Shown here: positions 4,426-36,069 of the stretch, in pieces | How positions within the stretch are numbered: the first letter of the stretch is position 1 | How the letters are laid out: every line of letters begins with the position of its first letter | Origin: Bacillota bacterium | GTDB taxonomy: Bacteria > Bacillota > Limnochordia > Limnochordales > DUMU01 | Direction: 5' to 3' | Length of the DNA: 64,000 nucleotides | Assembly: GCA_012839805.1 (NCBI GenBank) | Contig: DUMU01000045.1 | Coordinates: forward strand, 1 to 64,000 | Position numbers and translations under genes: made by a program | The notes under the pieces: generated by a model | The model's input: only the letters and a program-made list of their open reading frames with translations | Databases searched by the model: none | What the model was told of the DNA's origin: nothing

Positions 4426-5988
4426 CTACCCGCCTGCGCGGCGTTGAGAGCTGCGAGGCAAGCGGAGCGGCTGCACGGCCCGGGGCAGGATGCCCGTGAG
4501 GTAGGCCAGGATCACGCCATAGTTGACGACCGGCACTCCGGCTTGCCGGAGCAGCTGCAGCCGGCTTTGCATCTCCCGCCGGTTGAGCATGCAGCCACCG
4601 CAGTGGATCACGAGGCAGTAGGGCTGCAGTTCAGCGGGGAAATCGTACCCGGTGAACCACGTCCACTCGAGCTTTCCCCCGACCCTGGCTTCCAGCAGGC
4701 GGGGGATCTTTACCCGGCCAATGTCCACCTCGGTGGGCGGGCTGTGGGTGCAGGCCTCGGCAACCAGCACGCGATCGCCGGGCTTCAGGCGGGCAACGGC
4801 CTCGACGCCGGCGAGGAGCTGCTCCAGATCGCCCTTGTAACGGGCAAAGAGGATGGAGAACGAGGTGAGCGGTACGTCTGCCGGCAGCACCTGGGCCACC
4901 TGGGCGAAGGCCTGCGAGTCGGTGATGACCAGGGAGGGCGGATGGCACAAGCAGTTGAGGGCCGCGGCCAGTTCCGTTTCGCGCACCACCAGGGTTACCA
5001 CCCCGTGATCGAGGAGAGCCCGCAGCACCTGCTGCTGGGGCAGGATCAGACGTCCGGCCGGCGCCTCGCTGTCGATAGGGGTCACCAGGATGACCGTATC
5101 ACCCGGGGCGACCAGATCTTCTACGAGCGGCACGGACTCGGCCGAACCGCCTTCTTGGGCGGCCGCGATGATCAGCTGCTTGAGCTGATCGATGCCCTGG
5201 CCCGTGCGGGCGCTGACGGCGACGTAGCGCAGGGGCGATCGGGAGCTGGAGCTGCCCTGCCCCCCGTCTTGCAGGAATGCCGTCGCGGCGGCGAGGATCT
5301 GGGCGAACTCCGGCGGGAGGAGATTGCCCTTGCCATCGCGGCCGTTGCCGGCCACTGCCTCCAGGGCAAGGCGCTCCGGTTCGAGCCGGTCGATCTTGTT
5401 CCAAACCACCACTACCGGGGCGTTGGGATGGCGGCGGCGAAACTCGGTGAGAATCGCCCGCTCCTCGCCAAGGAACTGCTCGTAGTCGTCCCCCTCGTAG
5501 TTGTCCCCGTTGCCGGGCTGCCCGCCGCCCGCCGCTGCTACCGGTCTGGCTCCCGTTTCCTGCGTTTCCGGCGCCCGAGCCGCCGTTTGCCGGGTTAAAG
5601 CCTTCCGCGACAAGGCCGCGGCGTCAATGACCAGGAGGGCCACGTCCAGTCGCCGCAGCACCTTGCGGGTCCTTTCCACCCGCAACGTGCCCACCTCGCC
5701 TTCGTCGTCGAGCCCGGCCGTGTCCACGAAGACCACCGGCCCGAGCGGCTGCAGCTCCATCGCCTTGAAGACGGGGTCGGTAGTGGTGCCCGGCGTAGCG
5801 GAGACCACGGCCGCCTCCTGCCCGGCGAGGGCGTTCAGCAAGCTAGACTTGCCGGCATTTCGGCGGCCCAGGAGGCCGATGTGGATCCGTTCCGAGCGGG
5901 GCACGGCGGGCCGGCGAGGAACGCCGTCAACCCCCGTTACGGTCGGGTGCGTGCGATCAGCCGGATTAGAAGTAAAGATCTCTTTCAC
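4426..5988 (-). CDS. hydF: [FeFe]-hydrogenase maturation GTPase HydF
   Basis: Scaffold GTPase that assembles and delivers the 2Fe subcluster of [FeFe] hydrogenase. The GTPase domain shows the G1 loop GRRNAGKSS (residues ~41-49), G2 TPGTT, G3 DTAG and G4 NKID. The C-terminal cluster domain has CTH followed 46 residues later by HCGGC, exactly the CxHx(46-53)HCxxC pattern of HydF. A Gly/Pro/Ala-rich insert lies between the G3 and G4 motifs. I chose the GTG at 5988 because GGAGG lies 10 nt upstream; the TTG at 5997 would have only 1 nt of spacing. It overlaps the end of hydG, so translation is probably coupled. It is the last gene of the maturation operon. No hydrogenase structural gene is in the window. 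Confidence 0.95.
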   Translation of the reverse strand: MKEIFTSNPADRTHPTVTGVDGVPRRPAVPRSERIHIGLLGRRNAGKSSLLNALAGQEAAVVSATPGTTTDPVFKAMELQPLGPVVFVDTAGLDDEGEVGTLRVERTRKVLRRLDVALLVIDAAALSRKALTRQTAARAPETQETGARPVAAAGGGQPGNGDNYEGDDYEQFLGEERAILTEFRRRHPNAPVVVVWNKIDRLEPERLALEAVAGNGRDGKGNLLPPEFAQILAAATAFLQDGGQGSSSSRSPLRYVAVSARTGQGIDQLKQLIIAAAQEGGSAESVPLVEDLVAPGDTVILVTPIDSEAPAGRLILPQQQVLRALLDHGVVTLVVRETELAAALNCLCHPPSLVITDSQAFAQVAQVLPADVPLTSFSILFARYKGDLEQLLAGVEAVARLKPGDRVLVAEACTHSPPTEVDIGRVKIPRLLEARVGGKLEWTWFTGYDFPAELQPYCLVIHCGGCMLNRREMQSRLQLLRQAGVPVVNYGVILAYLTGILPRAVQPLRLPRSSQRRAGG

Positions 5989-7498
5989 CTTGCTCAAGCC
6001 TCCGCAGCCGGCGTAGGGTTTCCTCTTTGACTCGTTGGTTACCGATCTCCTGCAGGTGGGTGGCTATAACTTGCTCACCCAGTTCACGAGTCTCCGCTGA
6101 AGCGTAATCCAGCAGATACTCTTTGAAGGTCAGAATGGCGTTGGGCTGGCAGATGTTCTGGATCTGGCCAGTCTTCGCCAGCCGCATGAACCGGTCGCCG
6201 GTGCGCCCCCGCCGGTAGCAGGCCGTGCAGAAACTGGGCAGAAAGCCCCCCTGGCAAAGGCTCCTGATCATCTCGTCCGGGCTGCGCCGGTCTTCCACGG
6301 TGAACTGCGCTGCCTCTTCGCTCCGCGCGGCGCAGGTGCCGGTGCCGTTCGTCGCCGTCCCCGGTATGGCCGCCGTAGCCGCCGGTGCTGCCAGGTCGCG
6401 GTCCTGCAGGTGCTCCAGCAAGGGTTCCGCCCGATGATCATGCCCGTACTCCTGCCGGTAGCCGCCCACCCCGGTGCACGAACCAGCGCTCAGCTGCGAA
6501 ATGCCCAGGGCGAGCACCTCGTCTCGGTAACCGGGCCGTTCACGGGTGGAGAGAATCATACCGGTATAGGGGACGGCGAGCCGCAATACCGCCACCACCT
6601 TCTTGAACTGTTCGTCACCCACGAGGTAGGGGAACTTGTCCAGCGTGACGCCCCTCGCCGGACGCAGCCGGGGGACCGAGATGGTGTGCGGACCGACGCC
6701 AAACCGTTCTTCCAGGTGGCGGGCATGCAGGAGCAGCGCGAGGACTTCGAACCGGTAGTCGTACAGCCCGAAGAGCACCCCCAGCCCCACGTCATCGATA
6801 CCGGCCTCCATGGCCCGGTCCATGGCCGTTAAGTGCCAGGCATAGTTAGATTTCGGCCCGGAGGGGTGCATCCGGCGGTAGGTCTCCGGATGATAGGTCT
6901 CCTGGAAGAGGACATACGTACCGATTTTGGCTGCTTTTAAGAGACGATACTCGGCGACCGTAGTTGCGGCAATGTTTACGTTGACCCGGCGAATCTCGCC
7001 ATGGTCCTCGGTGGTCTCATAGATCGCGCCGATGACGTCCAGTACATAGTCGATGGGACAATGAACGGGGTCTTCGCCCGCCTCCAGCGCCAGCCGCTTG
7101 TGGCCGAGTGACTCGAGAATCCTGACCTCCTGCCGCACCTCGTCCAAAGTGAGACGGCGGCGGGGGAACTCGTTTCTGTGCCGGTAGCCGCAGTAGACGC
7201 AGTTATTCACGCAATAGTCGCTGATATAGAGCGGGGCGAAGAAGACCATCCGCTTGCCGTAGATCCGTTCCTTCACGAGCCGGGCGGTGGCGTACACCTC
7301 GGCGAGCAGTTCCGGATCTTCCAAAAGAAGCAGCTGCGCCGCTTCCGACAGGGAGATTCCCTTGGCTTCGCGCGCGTGGGCGAGGATGCCGGCCACCTCG
7401 GGGGCGCTAGGCGGTTTCGCCTCTCGCAGCAAATCGTCGATGAGGGCGGTATCAATGAAGTCGGCGGGATACCGCTCCAGTTCAACTGCATCAATCAT
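5966..7498 (-). CDS. hydG: [FeFe]-hydrogenase maturation radical-SAM enzyme HydG
   Basis: Radical SAM tyrosine lyase that makes the CO and CN ligands of the hydrogenase H-cluster. The radical-SAM cluster motif is CVNNCVYC (C96, C100, C103; Cx3Cx2C). The C-terminal auxiliary cluster motif Cx2Cx22C is present at C424, C427 and C450. Length (510 aa) is slightly above the family norm because of an Ala/Thr/Gly-rich insert near residues 365-385. The start ATG at 7498 has AAAGGAG 9 nt upstream. It overlaps hydE by 8 nt and hydF by ~23 nt, in a compact operon. Confidence 0.96.
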   Translation of the reverse strand: MIDAVELERYPADFIDTALIDDLLREAKPPSAPEVAGILAHAREAKGISLSEAAQLLLLEDPELLAEVYATARLVKERIYGKRMVFFAPLYISDYCVNNCVYCGYRHRNEFPRRRLTLDEVRQEVRILESLGHKRLALEAGEDPVHCPIDYVLDVIGAIYETTEDHGEIRRVNVNIAATTVAEYRLLKAAKIGTYVLFQETYHPETYRRMHPSGPKSNYAWHLTAMDRAMEAGIDDVGLGVLFGLYDYRFEVLALLLHARHLEERFGVGPHTISVPRLRPARGVTLDKFPYLVGDEQFKKVVAVLRLAVPYTGMILSTRERPGYRDEVLALGISQLSAGSCTGVGGYRQEYGHDHRAEPLLEHLQDRDLAAPAATAAIPGTATNGTGTCAARSEEAAQFTVEDRRSPDEMIRSLCQGGFLPSFCTACYRRGRTGDRFMRLAKTGQIQNICQPNAILTFKEYLLDYASAETRELGEQVIATHLQEIGNQRVKEETLRRLRRLEQGERDLYF

Positions 7499-8882
7499 GA
7501 GAGTGTTCTCCTTTCGACATTGCCGGGGACGGCAACGGCGGGTTCGTCATGGCCGGGTTTGGCAAGGCCGGGGCGGGGTTGCCTTGTCCCGCGTCGTCCC
7601 CGCCCTGCAACGGCCACTTCGGGCTGTGGCCGGGATCGGTGGCGACGTACCGGCCCAGGCCGGTGATCATGCGGCTCAGGCAGCTGAAACAACTGCTTGG
7701 GTCTTCGAAGAGGCAAATCTTGTTGGGGTAGATCTCGTAGTGACGCCGGTAGCGCGGGGGCGTCAGGTCGGGCATGACTACGTTTGCTCCGGCCTGCAGC
7801 GCCCGCTGGCGGCCCTGGGGATCGGCCGTGCCCAGGGCCGAGGTGGCCGGCAGGTGGGCCAGAGGCAAAAGCAGCCGCGTTACTGCTACCGTACGCAGCG
7901 TCATCGTTACCGGATCGGCCGGCAACCGGGCGTCCTTCATCGCATCGGCCGTCAGGCCGCTGCCTTTGCCGTAACCGTATCCAGAATTAGCGTTGCTTCT
8001 CCTGGCTTCGTTTCTTTTGGCAAGCTTGCCGAGGGGCGTCTCCGGGTGAACGATGAGCGGCCCGATGCCGGCCATCTCCACGTCCAGCTCGGCCAGGAAA
8101 GCTAGGTCCGCGGCCAGTGTGGAAACAGTCTGGCCCGGGAGCCCCACGATGTTGCCGGAGCCCACCTGGTAGCCGAGTTCCCGCAGCCAGTGCAAGCATT
8201 GCTTGCGGTTGGTGAACGACATGCCGGGATGCAGCCGCCGGTACAGGTCGGGGTCGGCCGTCTCGTGCTTGAGAAGGTAGCGATCCGCGCCCGCCTCCCG
8301 GAAGGCCGCATATTCGGCCCGCGGCCTCTCTCCCAGGGAAAGGGTGATAGCTACCTGGCCGGCGGGGGAGGACGGAGTCGGGATCCCTTTGATCCGGCGG
8401 ACCATGGTGCAGATGGTCCTCTCGTCGTACCAGGAATCTTCGCCCGACTGCAGCACTACCGTGCGGAAACCGAGGGCGATGGCCGCCCGGGCTGCCTCCA
8501 CCACTTCGTCCACCGTCATGCGGTAGCGAGGCAGCTTGCGGTTGAACCGCCGCAGCCCGCAGTACCAGCAGCTCCGTTCACAATGGTTGGAGAACTCGAT
8601 GATCGCCCGCAGGTGAACGGCATCCCCCACGGCCGCTCGCCGCACCCGGTTGGCGGTGGCAAACAGCGCCCGTTCGGCAGCGAGGGTGGGCGGGGTGAGG
8701 AGCGAGGCTATCTCTTCCGGGTCCGCTGCGATGGCCGTGGCGGCAAACCCGTCGCTCGTACGTACCCGGCCGGTGCGTCGACTGCCCTTCTCCCCGAGGC
8801 CGACGCCGGTCAGAAGGGCGGCCGCCCGTCCTGTGATGTCGTGAAGAAGCTCGCAATACTCGCATTCGTCGCTAACCTGCAT
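7491..8882 (-). CDS. hydE: [FeFe]-hydrogenase maturation radical-SAM enzyme HydE
   Basis: Radical SAM enzyme that acts on the iron synthon in H-cluster assembly. The SAM cluster motif is HCERSCWYC (C101, C105, C108). The optional second cluster motif of HydE is visible near the C-terminus as CLFEDPSSCFSC (Cx7Cx2C). Other family blocks are VVLQSGED, KHETADPDLYRRLHPGMSF and GNIVGLPGQT. A Gly/Ser/Tyr-rich insert follows the conserved PLGKLAKR segment. The ATG at 8882 has GAGGAG upstream. It lies 14 nt after the TM1266-type gene and overlaps hydG. Confidence 0.95.
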   Translation of the reverse strand: MQVSDECEYCELLHDITGRAAALLTGVGLGEKGSRRTGRVRTSDGFAATAIAADPEEIASLLTPPTLAAERALFATANRVRRAAVGDAVHLRAIIEFSNHCERSCWYCGLRRFNRKLPRYRMTVDEVVEAARAAIALGFRTVVLQSGEDSWYDERTICTMVRRIKGIPTPSSPAGQVAITLSLGERPRAEYAAFREAGADRYLLKHETADPDLYRRLHPGMSFTNRKQCLHWLRELGYQVGSGNIVGLPGQTVSTLAADLAFLAELDVEMAGIGPLIVHPETPLGKLAKRNEARRSNANSGYGYGKGSGLTADAMKDARLPADPVTMTLRTVAVTRLLLPLAHLPATSALGTADPQGRQRALQAGANVVMPDLTPPRYRRHYEIYPNKICLFEDPSSCFSCLSRMITGLGRYVATDPGHSPKWPLQGGDDAGQGNPAPALPNPAMTNPPLPSPAMSKGEHSHD

Positions 8883-8896
8883 GGGGTGCCGGCTCC

Positions 8897-9244
8897 TCAG
8901 TGGTGGGAGTACCGGGTCAGGGCCGACTTGACGATGACCCCCCGGATCTGGCCGAGCCGTCCGGTCAAGGCGCCGATTTCATCGGTCGTACCGTCAACGA
9001 TCAGGGCGATCACGGAAACTCCCGCTTCCCGGTACGGTACGCCGAGACGTCCGACAATGATCTCGCCGAACTCGGTGAGCAGCTGGTTCACCAGAGGTGC
9101 GGTCTCCTTGCGGCGCTCGACGACGATTCCCACGACTCCCAGCCGCCGTTCGGGCGGCATGGAAGGAGGAACTGGGCAAGATTCGGCCCCGCCGTTCGCT
9201 GGGGGCTGGTAACCGGATTCCGCGCTCTTCTTTGGGCCGTTCAC
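8897..9244 (-). CDS. TM1266-family protein (putative iron-only hydrogenase system regulator)
   Basis: Small ACT-like protein of the TM1266 family, usually annotated as a putative iron-only hydrogenase system regulator. The conserved part starts at RRLGVVGIVVE (about residue 33) and runs to GVIVKSALTRYSHH; the first ~32 residues are a Pro/Ser-rich extension. In many anaerobes this gene sits beside hydE/hydG/hydF, as here. The start GTG at 9244 is preceded by GGTGA. It is the first gene of the operon and is transcribed from the promoter near 9550 through a structured leader. The molecular function of the family is not firmly established. Confidence 0.88.
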   Translation of the reverse strand: MNGPKKSAESGYQPPANGGAESCPVPPSMPPERRLGVVGIVVERRKETAPLVNQLLTEFGEIIVGRLGVPYREAGVSVIALIVDGTTDEIGALTGRLGQIRGVIVKSALTRYSHH

Positions 9245-9355: not shown

Positions 9356-9381
9356 AAAAAAGCCGTCCCGGCGGGAACGGC
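9356..9381 (-). terminator. Intrinsic terminator in the leader of the hydrogenase maturation operon
   Basis: On the minus strand, GCCGT and ACGGC pair around an inner CCC/GGG, and the hairpin is followed directly by six T residues (9361-9356). It lies ~110 nt upstream of the first gene, so it is an attenuator if the transcript starts at the 9570 promoter. It could also end transcription arriving from vapBC. Confidence 0.75.
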
Positions 9382-9540
9382 AAAGATGGCCATACACCTT
9401 AGCTGCCCCGCCCTTCGTCGGGTAACCCCTTCGTCAGGCTGCCGGCTTGTCTGCTGGTCTCCGCGAGCCCTCCGGCCTGGCCCCAGCGGGGAGTTAGCCC
9501 GCCTCGGCCGCAGCCGTCCTGGCCACGTGCATGTGAACCC
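9382..9540 (-). ncRNA. Unassigned structured leader RNA upstream of TM1266-hydEGF
   Basis: About 160 nt lie between a strong promoter (9547-9575) and the intrinsic terminator (9356-9381). The RNA can form a closing helix between CATGCAC near its 5' end and GTGTATG near its 3' end (one G-U pair), an inner GCTGC/GCAGC helix and a GCCGG/CCGGC hairpin. No protein-coding frame in it looks real. I compared it by eye with TPP, cobalamin, SAM, FMN, lysine, M-box, c-di-GMP, c-di-AMP, Moco, T-box, 6S and SRP consensus elements and found no convincing match. A metabolite- or protein-controlled attenuator, or an independent small RNA, are both possible. Confidence 0.45.
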
Positions 9541-9546
9541 ACTCAC

Positions 9547-9575
9547 AAGTTACTCCGGCTTGGCGACTGTGTCAA
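9547..9575 (-). promoter_or_regulatory. Sigma-A-type promoter for the hydrogenase maturation operon
   Basis: TTGACA (-35, 9575-9570), 17-nt spacer, TAACTT (-10, 9552-9547) on the minus strand. Transcription would start near 9540, giving a ~300-nt 5' leader before the GTG at 9244. Confidence 0.6.
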
Positions 9576-34579: not shown

Positions 34580-34693
34580 TCCCTTTACCTTTAAGTCCGG
34601 TCCTGTGAGGCTGGAAAGGGAAGAGGGCAAACATGAACCGAAACCTCATGTATGCTTTCTACCGCCAGCCTCCTACGAAGAAGGAGGCTTTTT
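34580..34693 (+). promoter_or_regulatory. PyrR-responsive attenuator upstream of uraA
   Basis: The PyrR-binding stem-loop spans 34580-34621: TCCCTTT pairs with AAAGGGA around the conserved AAGTCC...GTGAGGCTGG core. It is followed by an intrinsic terminator at 34667-34693 (AGCCTCCT / AGGAGGCT, then five T). The 3' arm of the terminator contains the AAGGAGG ribosome site of uraA, so the same hairpin can stop transcription and hide the start of translation. Confidence 0.85.
34667..34693 (+). terminator. Intrinsic terminator of the pyr attenuator
   Basis: Eight-base-pair stem AGCCTCCT / AGGAGGCT with a short loop and a T5 run, 3 nt before the uraA ATG. Confidence 0.85.
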
Positions 34694-34695
34694 CA

Positions 34696-36069
34696 ATGGG
34701 TAAAAAGAAAGCAGCCATTGCGGCGAACGACCGGCGGCGGGCAATGCCGGCGACTCCTGCCGGGCGGGCCAGGCGGGCAGTTTATGACGTTAATGAACGG
34801 CCGCCGGTTCGGCGGTTGATTCCCCTCGGCTTACAGCACCTCTTCGCCATGTTTGGCGCCACAGTCCTCGTTCCCATCCTGACGGGCCTGAACACGCAAG
34901 TAGCCCTCTTCACGGCCGGAGCTGGCACCCTTCTCTTCATCCTGATCACGCAGGGGAAGGTGCCGGCCTATCTCGGTTCATCCTTCGCCTTCATTGCTCC
35001 CATCATCGCCGTATCGCAGGCGTATGGCGCAGCGTACGCCCTGGGAGGGGCGGTCGCCGTCGGCCTCGTTTACGCCCTGGTGGCCGCCGTCATCCGGTTC
35101 GTGGGGACCGGCTGGCTGCAGCGGGTTCTCCCCCCGGTGGTCGTGGGCCCGATCATCATGGTCATCGGGCTCGGGCTCGCGGGCAGCGTGATTGCCGCCG
35201 CCGGGCTCAACCGGCCGGGACTCAGTCTCGCCGACGTCAACGTTCAGATCACGCTCTTTACTGTGGCCGCGACGGCGGTGGCCACCGGATTCTTGCGGGG
35301 CTTCTTCGGCCTGATCCCGGTCCTCATCGGAATCGTGAGCGGATACACCTTTGCTCTCCTGCGGGGAGCGGTTGACTTCACGCCCGTCCTGAACGCCCGG
35401 TGGTTGATGGTTCCGGCGTTCCAATTCCCGCAGTTCAGCTGGGCCGCCGTGGCGGCCATCGTCCCGGTGAGCATCGTCACCCTGGCGGAGCACCTGGGTG
35501 ATGTTCTGGTGCTTTCCAACGTCACGGGCCGGGACTTCACCCGTGACCCCGGGCTTCACCGCACGATCCTGGGCGACGGCCTGGCCACCTCCCTCGCCGG
35601 TCTGCTCGGCGGGCCGCCCAACACGACCTACGGGGAGAACATCGGCGTCATGGCGGTCACCCGGGTATATTCGGTGTGGGCGGTGGGTACGGCCGCCATC
35701 ATGGCCATTGCCCTGGCTTTCATCGGCAAGATGGGGGCGATCCTGAGCACCATCCCCAGTCCGGTGATCACGGGGATGAGCATCGTCCTCTTTGGTACGA
35801 TCGCGGCCTCCGGCATGCGCAACCTTATTCACAACCAGGTCGATTTCGGTGAACGCCGGAATCTCATCATAGCTTCCGTCATCCTGGTGCTCGGTATCGG
35901 CGGGGCGAAGCTCACCATCGGTAGCGTTCATCTTGAGGGCATGGCGCTGGCCGCTCTGGCCGGGGTACTGCTCAACCTGCTGATGCCCGGGGAGAAGACG
36001 AAGGAAGGGACCTCCGGTCAAGTGCAGCCGGAGTCACCGCCGCCGCAGGTCCAGGCGGTAGAAGCGTAA
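34696..36069 (+). CDS. uraA: Uracil/xanthine permease (NCS2 family), UraA/PyrP
   Basis: Membrane transporter for uracil uptake, placed under PyrR control. About 14 hydrophobic segments follow a basic 30-residue tail; family motifs include [17 protein letters not shown] near the first helix and [16 protein letters not shown] near the substrate site. ATG at 34696 was chosen because AAGGAGG lies 8 nt upstream; the open frame from 34633 starts inside the attenuator and cannot be the start. The C-terminal tail is Pro/Gln-rich, and a hexanucleotide repeat continues past its stop codon. Confidence 0.94.

Follow-up and report, generated by a model that had tools for sequence, protein, structure and literature searches.

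The assembly of the H-cluster by HydE, HydF and HydG has been much studied. To our knowledge no control of this assembly beyond Rex has been described, and we know of no mechanism for TM1266, which bears the name of a putative regulator. Two kinds of antiterminator RNA are relevant for comparison. The LicT/BglG RAT, which goes with a CAT-domain (PF03123) protein, is a short hairpin of pseudo-two-fold symmetry in which two similar internal loops occur; as an antiterminator it pairs into the terminator stem. The antiterminator bound by ANTAR proteins has a pair of hairpins with hexaloops that carry A1 and G4, and comes with an ANTAR protein. Rex sites are reported to lie before hydG and a TM1266 homologue in C. 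thermocellum and C. bescii, and the C. thermocellum Rex regulon also lists an ECF transport protein (PMC8457756).

The window, i.e., the whole analysed stretch of 64,000 nucleotides from a Bacillota bacterium, contains the operon TM1266-hydE-hydG-hydF, with promoter, leader and terminator all on the minus strand (Table 1). We consider it probable that the operon is controlled by a promoter set by Rex and by an OFF-type attenuator RNA of a widespread family, placed in front of TM1266-hydEGF. The leader spans about 180 nt between promoter and terminator (a 181-nt RNA was folded), and TM1266 starts with GTG about 110 nt beyond the end of the T6 run at 9356. Plus-strand folding was set aside, the genes being on the minus strand. 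The first-pass annotation had proposed a structured leader with terminator behind a textbook promoter, TTGACA-17-TAACTT. The coordinates were exact, and in two relatives the promoter/operator block retains 68-86% identity, but "textbook" is too strong since the -10 hexamer agrees with TATAAT at only three of six positions. The leader itself, with its terminator and the alternative folds treated below, was borne out by conservation. Indeed, the weight of the leader comes from conservation and not from stability: the terminator is stable (dG -12.9, z -2.9), whereas the 181-nt leader, taken as a whole, does not exceed its shuffles in stability (z -1.16), so its overall stability is no evidence.

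A DNA search of relatives recovered the leader from G001 and G002, both of the same family, and there too it precedes TM1266. Among the three genomes the 3' half of the leader is 91-93% identical, compared with 78-82% for the core coding DNA of TM1266, 27-38% for the region upstream of the promoter and 27-42% for the spacer 3' of the terminator; for the 5' half of the leader the identity is 57-70%. An exact-pattern scan of genomes gave, among the matches listed, mostly chance occurrences and one real one, Limnochordaceae bacterium Bu26 (JADBKQ010000012), which is G002. No two-sided compensatory change was found in the tested structure across the three family leaders, which are too few to show covariation by themselves. 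A 12-codon AUG...UAA reading frame in the window was rejected as a leader peptide; its start codon is lost in both relatives. The same comparison bears on the proposal that the terminator serves to end vapBC transcription and that the leader is incidental. Although vapBC does lie upstream on the same strand, a conserved promoter stands between it and the terminator, and both relatives have unrelated sequence upstream while retaining promoter, leader and terminator. As the flank on the vapBC side is not conserved and promoter, leader and terminator are, the terminator is not merely the end of vapBC, and this explanation, which the first-pass annotation had named as a possible refutation, is refuted by the relatives and can be given hardly any weight.

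Table 1. Features of the hydrogenase-maturation locus in the window; the four gene products each scored above NCBIfam cut-offs.
Feature	Position	Strand	Basis
hydF	4426-5997	-	TIGR03918, above cut-off
hydG	5966-7498	-	TIGR03955, above cut-off
hydE	7491-8882	-	TIGR03956, above cut-off
TM1266, "iron-only hydrogenase system putative regulator"	8897-9244	-	TIGR03959 E=4e-31; PF21699; PDB 2nzc E=4.5e-14
Intrinsic terminator, GCCGTTCC-cgcc-GGGACGGC (9381-9362) and T6 (9361-9356)	9356-9381	-	paired in both relatives
Antiterminator hairpin, GGGGCAGCUAAGGUG/CAUCUUUGCCGUUCC	9374-9409	-	exclusive with terminator; folds; conserved in three genomes
Core element, GCCUGA-CG-AAGGG-GUUA-CCCGA-CG-AAGGGC	9410-9439	-	GA/AA internal loops, 2-bp inner helix
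Possible degenerate first copy, GGCUGC-GGCC-GAGGCGGG-CUAACU-CCCCGCUGG-GGCC-AGGCC	9474-9515	-	tentative; R2 only 3.8 bits
Rex-type operator TTGTGAGTGGGTTCACAT, palindrome TTGTGA-N6-TCACA (9548-9532)	9531-9548	-	over -10 and start site
-10 hexamer TAACTT, 17-nt spacer	9547-9552	-	3/6 to TATAAT; TAAYTT in both relatives
-35 hexamer TTGACA	9570-9575	-	sequence; aligned in G001 and G002

The operator over the start site was missed in the first-pass annotation. The word TTGTGAN6TCACA has its only exact occurrence in the window's genome (G000) here, and it is kept at the same place in G001 and G002. In these two relatives the same word, or a form with one mismatch, is also found between PFL-like and AdhE-like genes (pflB/adhE) and before RnfC-like genes and a HydC/NuoE-like operon, gene names which were assigned by eye from the translations. 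Each of the three family genomes has two genes with a Rex domain (PF06971). A predicted site over the promoter, a Rex gene in the genome and typical co-targets are all present, and this pattern points to membership in the Rex regulon, with Rex as the probable protein of the operator. Genes for CRP-type HTH proteins are also present, and a protein of this type could use the same half-sites.

TM1266 was present in 213 of the 398 sampled genomes, and its upstream regions in other Bacillota contained terminators and a recurring YCUGA-N4-RAGGR motif. The consensus of the element is YCUGA-N4-RAGGR-loop-YCUGA-N4'-RAGGGG, a pseudo-two-fold hairpin that is often in tandem. Both halves follow one consensus, in which N4 is preceded by C, U, G, A and followed by R, A, G, G; thus the hairpin is pseudo-two-fold symmetric and has two like internal loops (G.A/A.R). 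Covariation in regions upstream of TM1266 operons, suggested earlier as a check, turned out to be strong. In elements selected by their letters only, with pairing not required, N4 and N4' were complementary at 105 of 124 positions, versus 52.5 +/- 5.7 with shuffled partners (0 of 10,000), and the distinct N4 combinations included 10 perfect pairs where 1.4 were expected. Two-sided changes occurred in 7 of 10 pairs of a 15-member alignment, with a covariation score of 0.729 vs 0.248. A 62-member alignment, which was fitted to the model and hence is biased towards it, scored 0.656 vs 0.230. Eight leaders had at least two copies of the element at E<=0.05, and in some (e.g., L238 and L243) each arm appears, judged by eye, to hold additional hairpins. 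The first-pass annotation had missed both the repeat with its two-fold symmetry and the wide spread of the family, members of which also precede hydG, hydE and transporter genes.

The covariance models R2 and R3 were built without any sequence of the window's family. R2 matched 60 of 127 TM1266 upstream regions sampled from Bacillota and gave 62 matches in 45 kb of such regions, whereas a search of unrelated loci preselected for a similar motif (482 kb) produced a single match, of 15.3 bits. At the core element the R3 scores were 27.8 bits in the window (E 7e-6, 9.7 kb searched), 26.2 bits for G001 and 25.6 bits for G002; when the complete G001 genome was scanned, the hydrogenase-maturation leader came out as the top match. 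R2 gave 19.6 bits at the window's element with filters off; it missed the element when the full window was scanned with default filters (70 kb searched), and the R3 scan of the window's genome did not report it either. The fold of the core element has a z of -3.7. The window's copy is thus recognized by a model trained outside its family, and it stands where members of the family stand, before TM1266 with a terminator behind. Its inner helix has just two base pairs (CG/CG), likewise in both relatives, whereas the family has 4 bp as a rule and 3 in some members, and we therefore regard it as an atypical member. A weak second copy may precede the core element; its fold and pairing are retained in the relatives.

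Genome-wide, R2 matches preceded TM1266, or hydG directly, or hydE directly, as well as transporter genes. Three further HydE-bearing genomes from the class (G027, G035 and G032) had matches before TM1266-hydE. Two types of expression platform were observed. In five genomes (L382-L385, L405) the 3' end of the element, AAGGGAAGGAG or AAGGGAGGAG, overlaps the Shine-Dalgarno sequence of hydG, which makes it a translational platform, while elsewhere the element is followed by a terminator. The transporter contexts come from single genomes each. The element stands before an ECF S-component gene (L379, G337), before a gene that is of ECF type by resemblance only and has no Pfam match (L390, G092), and, in at least one copy and seemingly in two tandem ones, before an operon with an SsuC/TauC-type ABC permease and an NMT1-like binding protein (L387, G215:C32). 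In L395 (G124:C1:94800-97800) a TM1266-FecCD-ATPase-hydE cluster has its own element and terminator, and its FecE/BtuD-type ABC ATPase has a TM1266-like domain (PF21699, E=6e-17) fused at its C-terminal end. TM1266 was present in every genome with a convincing element, except for one incomplete MAG. A part of the candidates was scored in the genome scans, and the distribution given here is therefore a lower bound. Of the R2 genome matches looked at in detail, four look like chance: L391, L393, L394 and L381, the last of which lies inside the reading frame of an ABC transporter. The leader-wide covariance model R1 had no true match outside the three same-family genomes; its weak matches L037, L038, L165 and L166 were rejected as they lack the element, the latter two lying within coding sequence. 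A TwoAYGGAY RNA (RF01731, 46 bits) was found just downstream of TM1266 at L238:1841-1906, plus strand.

In the window, the P5 antiterminator (-13.1 kcal/mol) and the terminator (-12.9 kcal/mol) have GCCGUUCC in common and are mutually exclusive, as in a transcription attenuator, and in the folds an extended antiterminator can invade the last GGGC of the element. Across 35 leaders, the 3' strand of the element and the next few bases pair with the 5' arm of the terminator at -12.2 kcal/mol, compared with -9.9 +/- 0.4 when partners were swapped between leaders (0 of 20,000) and -10.2 for dinucleotide-shuffled sequences (0 of 300); for the window alone this duplex was no better than shuffles. Because the 3' strand complements the terminator arm, folding of the element should keep the antiterminator from forming and favour termination, and we infer from this an OFF direction, with a putative effector to set it. 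For the window the OFF logic is less certain, as folds with the element and with the antiterminator partly coexist. Of the transcription-attenuating riboswitch layout proposed earlier, the conserved leader with alternative antiterminator and terminator folds stands, whereas a protein-bound attenuator fits the layout equally well. For the suggested ligand linked to iron, H2 or SAM metabolism it is the gene context that speaks. The mechanism we propose is as follows. A Rex-type operator would set the firing of the hydrogenase-maturation promoter by NADH/NAD+, and the transcript would carry a cis-regulatory RNA in which two YCUGA-N4-RAGGR halves are paired with each other. The effector would stabilise this hairpin and hold its 3' strand, so that the antiterminator could not fully form; the intrinsic terminator would then fold and transcription would stop before TM1266-hydEGF. 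Without the effector, the antiterminator would form and the operon would be read.

The nature of the effector may be approached from the gene contexts and from the shape of the RNA. If the element is a riboswitch for a small molecule or a metal, its two internal loops would be paired ligand sites, and the ligand would report the supply for the H-cluster; it could be an iron species, a product of maturation or a precursor that the cell takes up. The copies before transporters (the ECF S-component, SsuC/TauC-type and FecCD contexts) fit such a role, and tandem copies and the use of both terminator and Shine-Dalgarno platforms are common in riboswitches. YCUGA and RAGGR are, on the other hand, few invariant bases for an aptamer, and the presence of TM1266 in all but one of the genomes with a convincing element also speaks against it; we give this reading somewhat less than an even chance. 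Alternatively, the element may bind a symmetric protein, most plausibly TM1266, which would then be an autoregulatory RNA-binding attenuation protein controlling also hydE, hydG and the transporters. The pseudo-two-fold RNA, with like loops in opposite orientation, would suit such a protein, and TM1266 is a named regulator, is usually the first gene behind the element and co-occurs with it. It is a single domain of about 76 residues in which NCBIfam and Pfam searches found no DNA-binding domain. Its motifs GRMGxPY, TGKLG and VK are conserved, and as it has no conserved Cys or His, a classical metal site is unlikely. TM1266 is, however, found in more genomes than the element was (213 of 398), and the ABC ATPase with its fused TM1266-like domain fits a role in ligand sensing equally. 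We hold an RNA-binding TM1266, or another symmetric protein, to be a serious candidate, though clearly short of even odds.

There is also the simpler account of a constitutive partial terminator without effector, with Rex at the promoter as sole regulation. The operator, the known Rex control of these genes (PMC8457756), and the degenerate element of the window agree with it. The element nevertheless covaries across many genera and precedes separate genes on both termination and translation platforms, which requires selection on the RNA, and we find this account improbable. A more far-reaching reading, to which we give somewhat less than even odds, is a new and widespread class of regulatory RNA that serves [FeFe]-hydrogenase assembly specifically; TM1266, or whatever ligand TM1266 senses, would act on the symmetric hairpins and switch maturation and transport genes.

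The leader had initially been left without a match to known RNA classes, and a search with Rfam 15 (4227 families) agrees: the window gave no match at the gathering threshold and only weak unrelated ones in a permissive search, and the leaders of twenty homologous TM1266 loci gave none, with only sRNA/snoRNA noise at E<=5. T-box, mini-ykkC and NiCo were thereby rejected. For ANTAR, a search with PF03861 matched nothing, control genomes included, and by eye the loops do not fit. Elsewhere in the window, at 34584-34697 on the plus strand, a PyrR binding site (RF00515) scored 53.7 bits against a gathering score of 54 and is probably a real pyrimidine attenuator. Literature on TM1266, hydE/hydG or hydrogenase maturation together with riboswitches or structured RNA gave no description of the element in a search that covered few subscription-only papers. 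Since the hairpin recurs before these genes in many anaerobes yet matches no catalogued RNA family, it appears to be a cis-acting attenuator of an undescribed family. Its presence in many Bacillota families, before TM1266, hydE, hydG and a few transporters, provides a cis-element of about 30 nt with which one can ask which signal is read and whether TM1266 binds RNA, and the transporter genes that follow it may give a hint of a precursor or metal on which hydrogenase maturation depends.

The locus shares with the Rex regulon of Clostridia a Rex-type palindrome before TM1266/hydG genes, whereas the consulted passages on that regulon describe control at the DNA level and do not mention an RNA element (PMC8457756). 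Guanidine-II (mini-ykkC, RF01068) is likewise very small and pseudo-symmetric, and GACGA-like letters occur in the halves of the window's element; it forms, however, two hairpins with ACGR loops, while the halves of the element pair with each other via the covarying N4 helix, and Rfam gave no match. For NiCo (czcD, RF02683) a metal context is conceivable and a four-way junction is a possible fold of the long-armed L238 and L243, but consensus and genes differ, and Rfam gave no match at either the gathering or the permissive threshold. The LicT/BglG RAT, compared by its architecture, differs in sequence and lacks the hydrogenase context, and in our element it is the 3' strand that, once unfolded, pairs with the arm of the terminator; the RAT nevertheless resembles the element in being a pseudo-two-fold hairpin suited to a symmetric protein and linked to a terminator.
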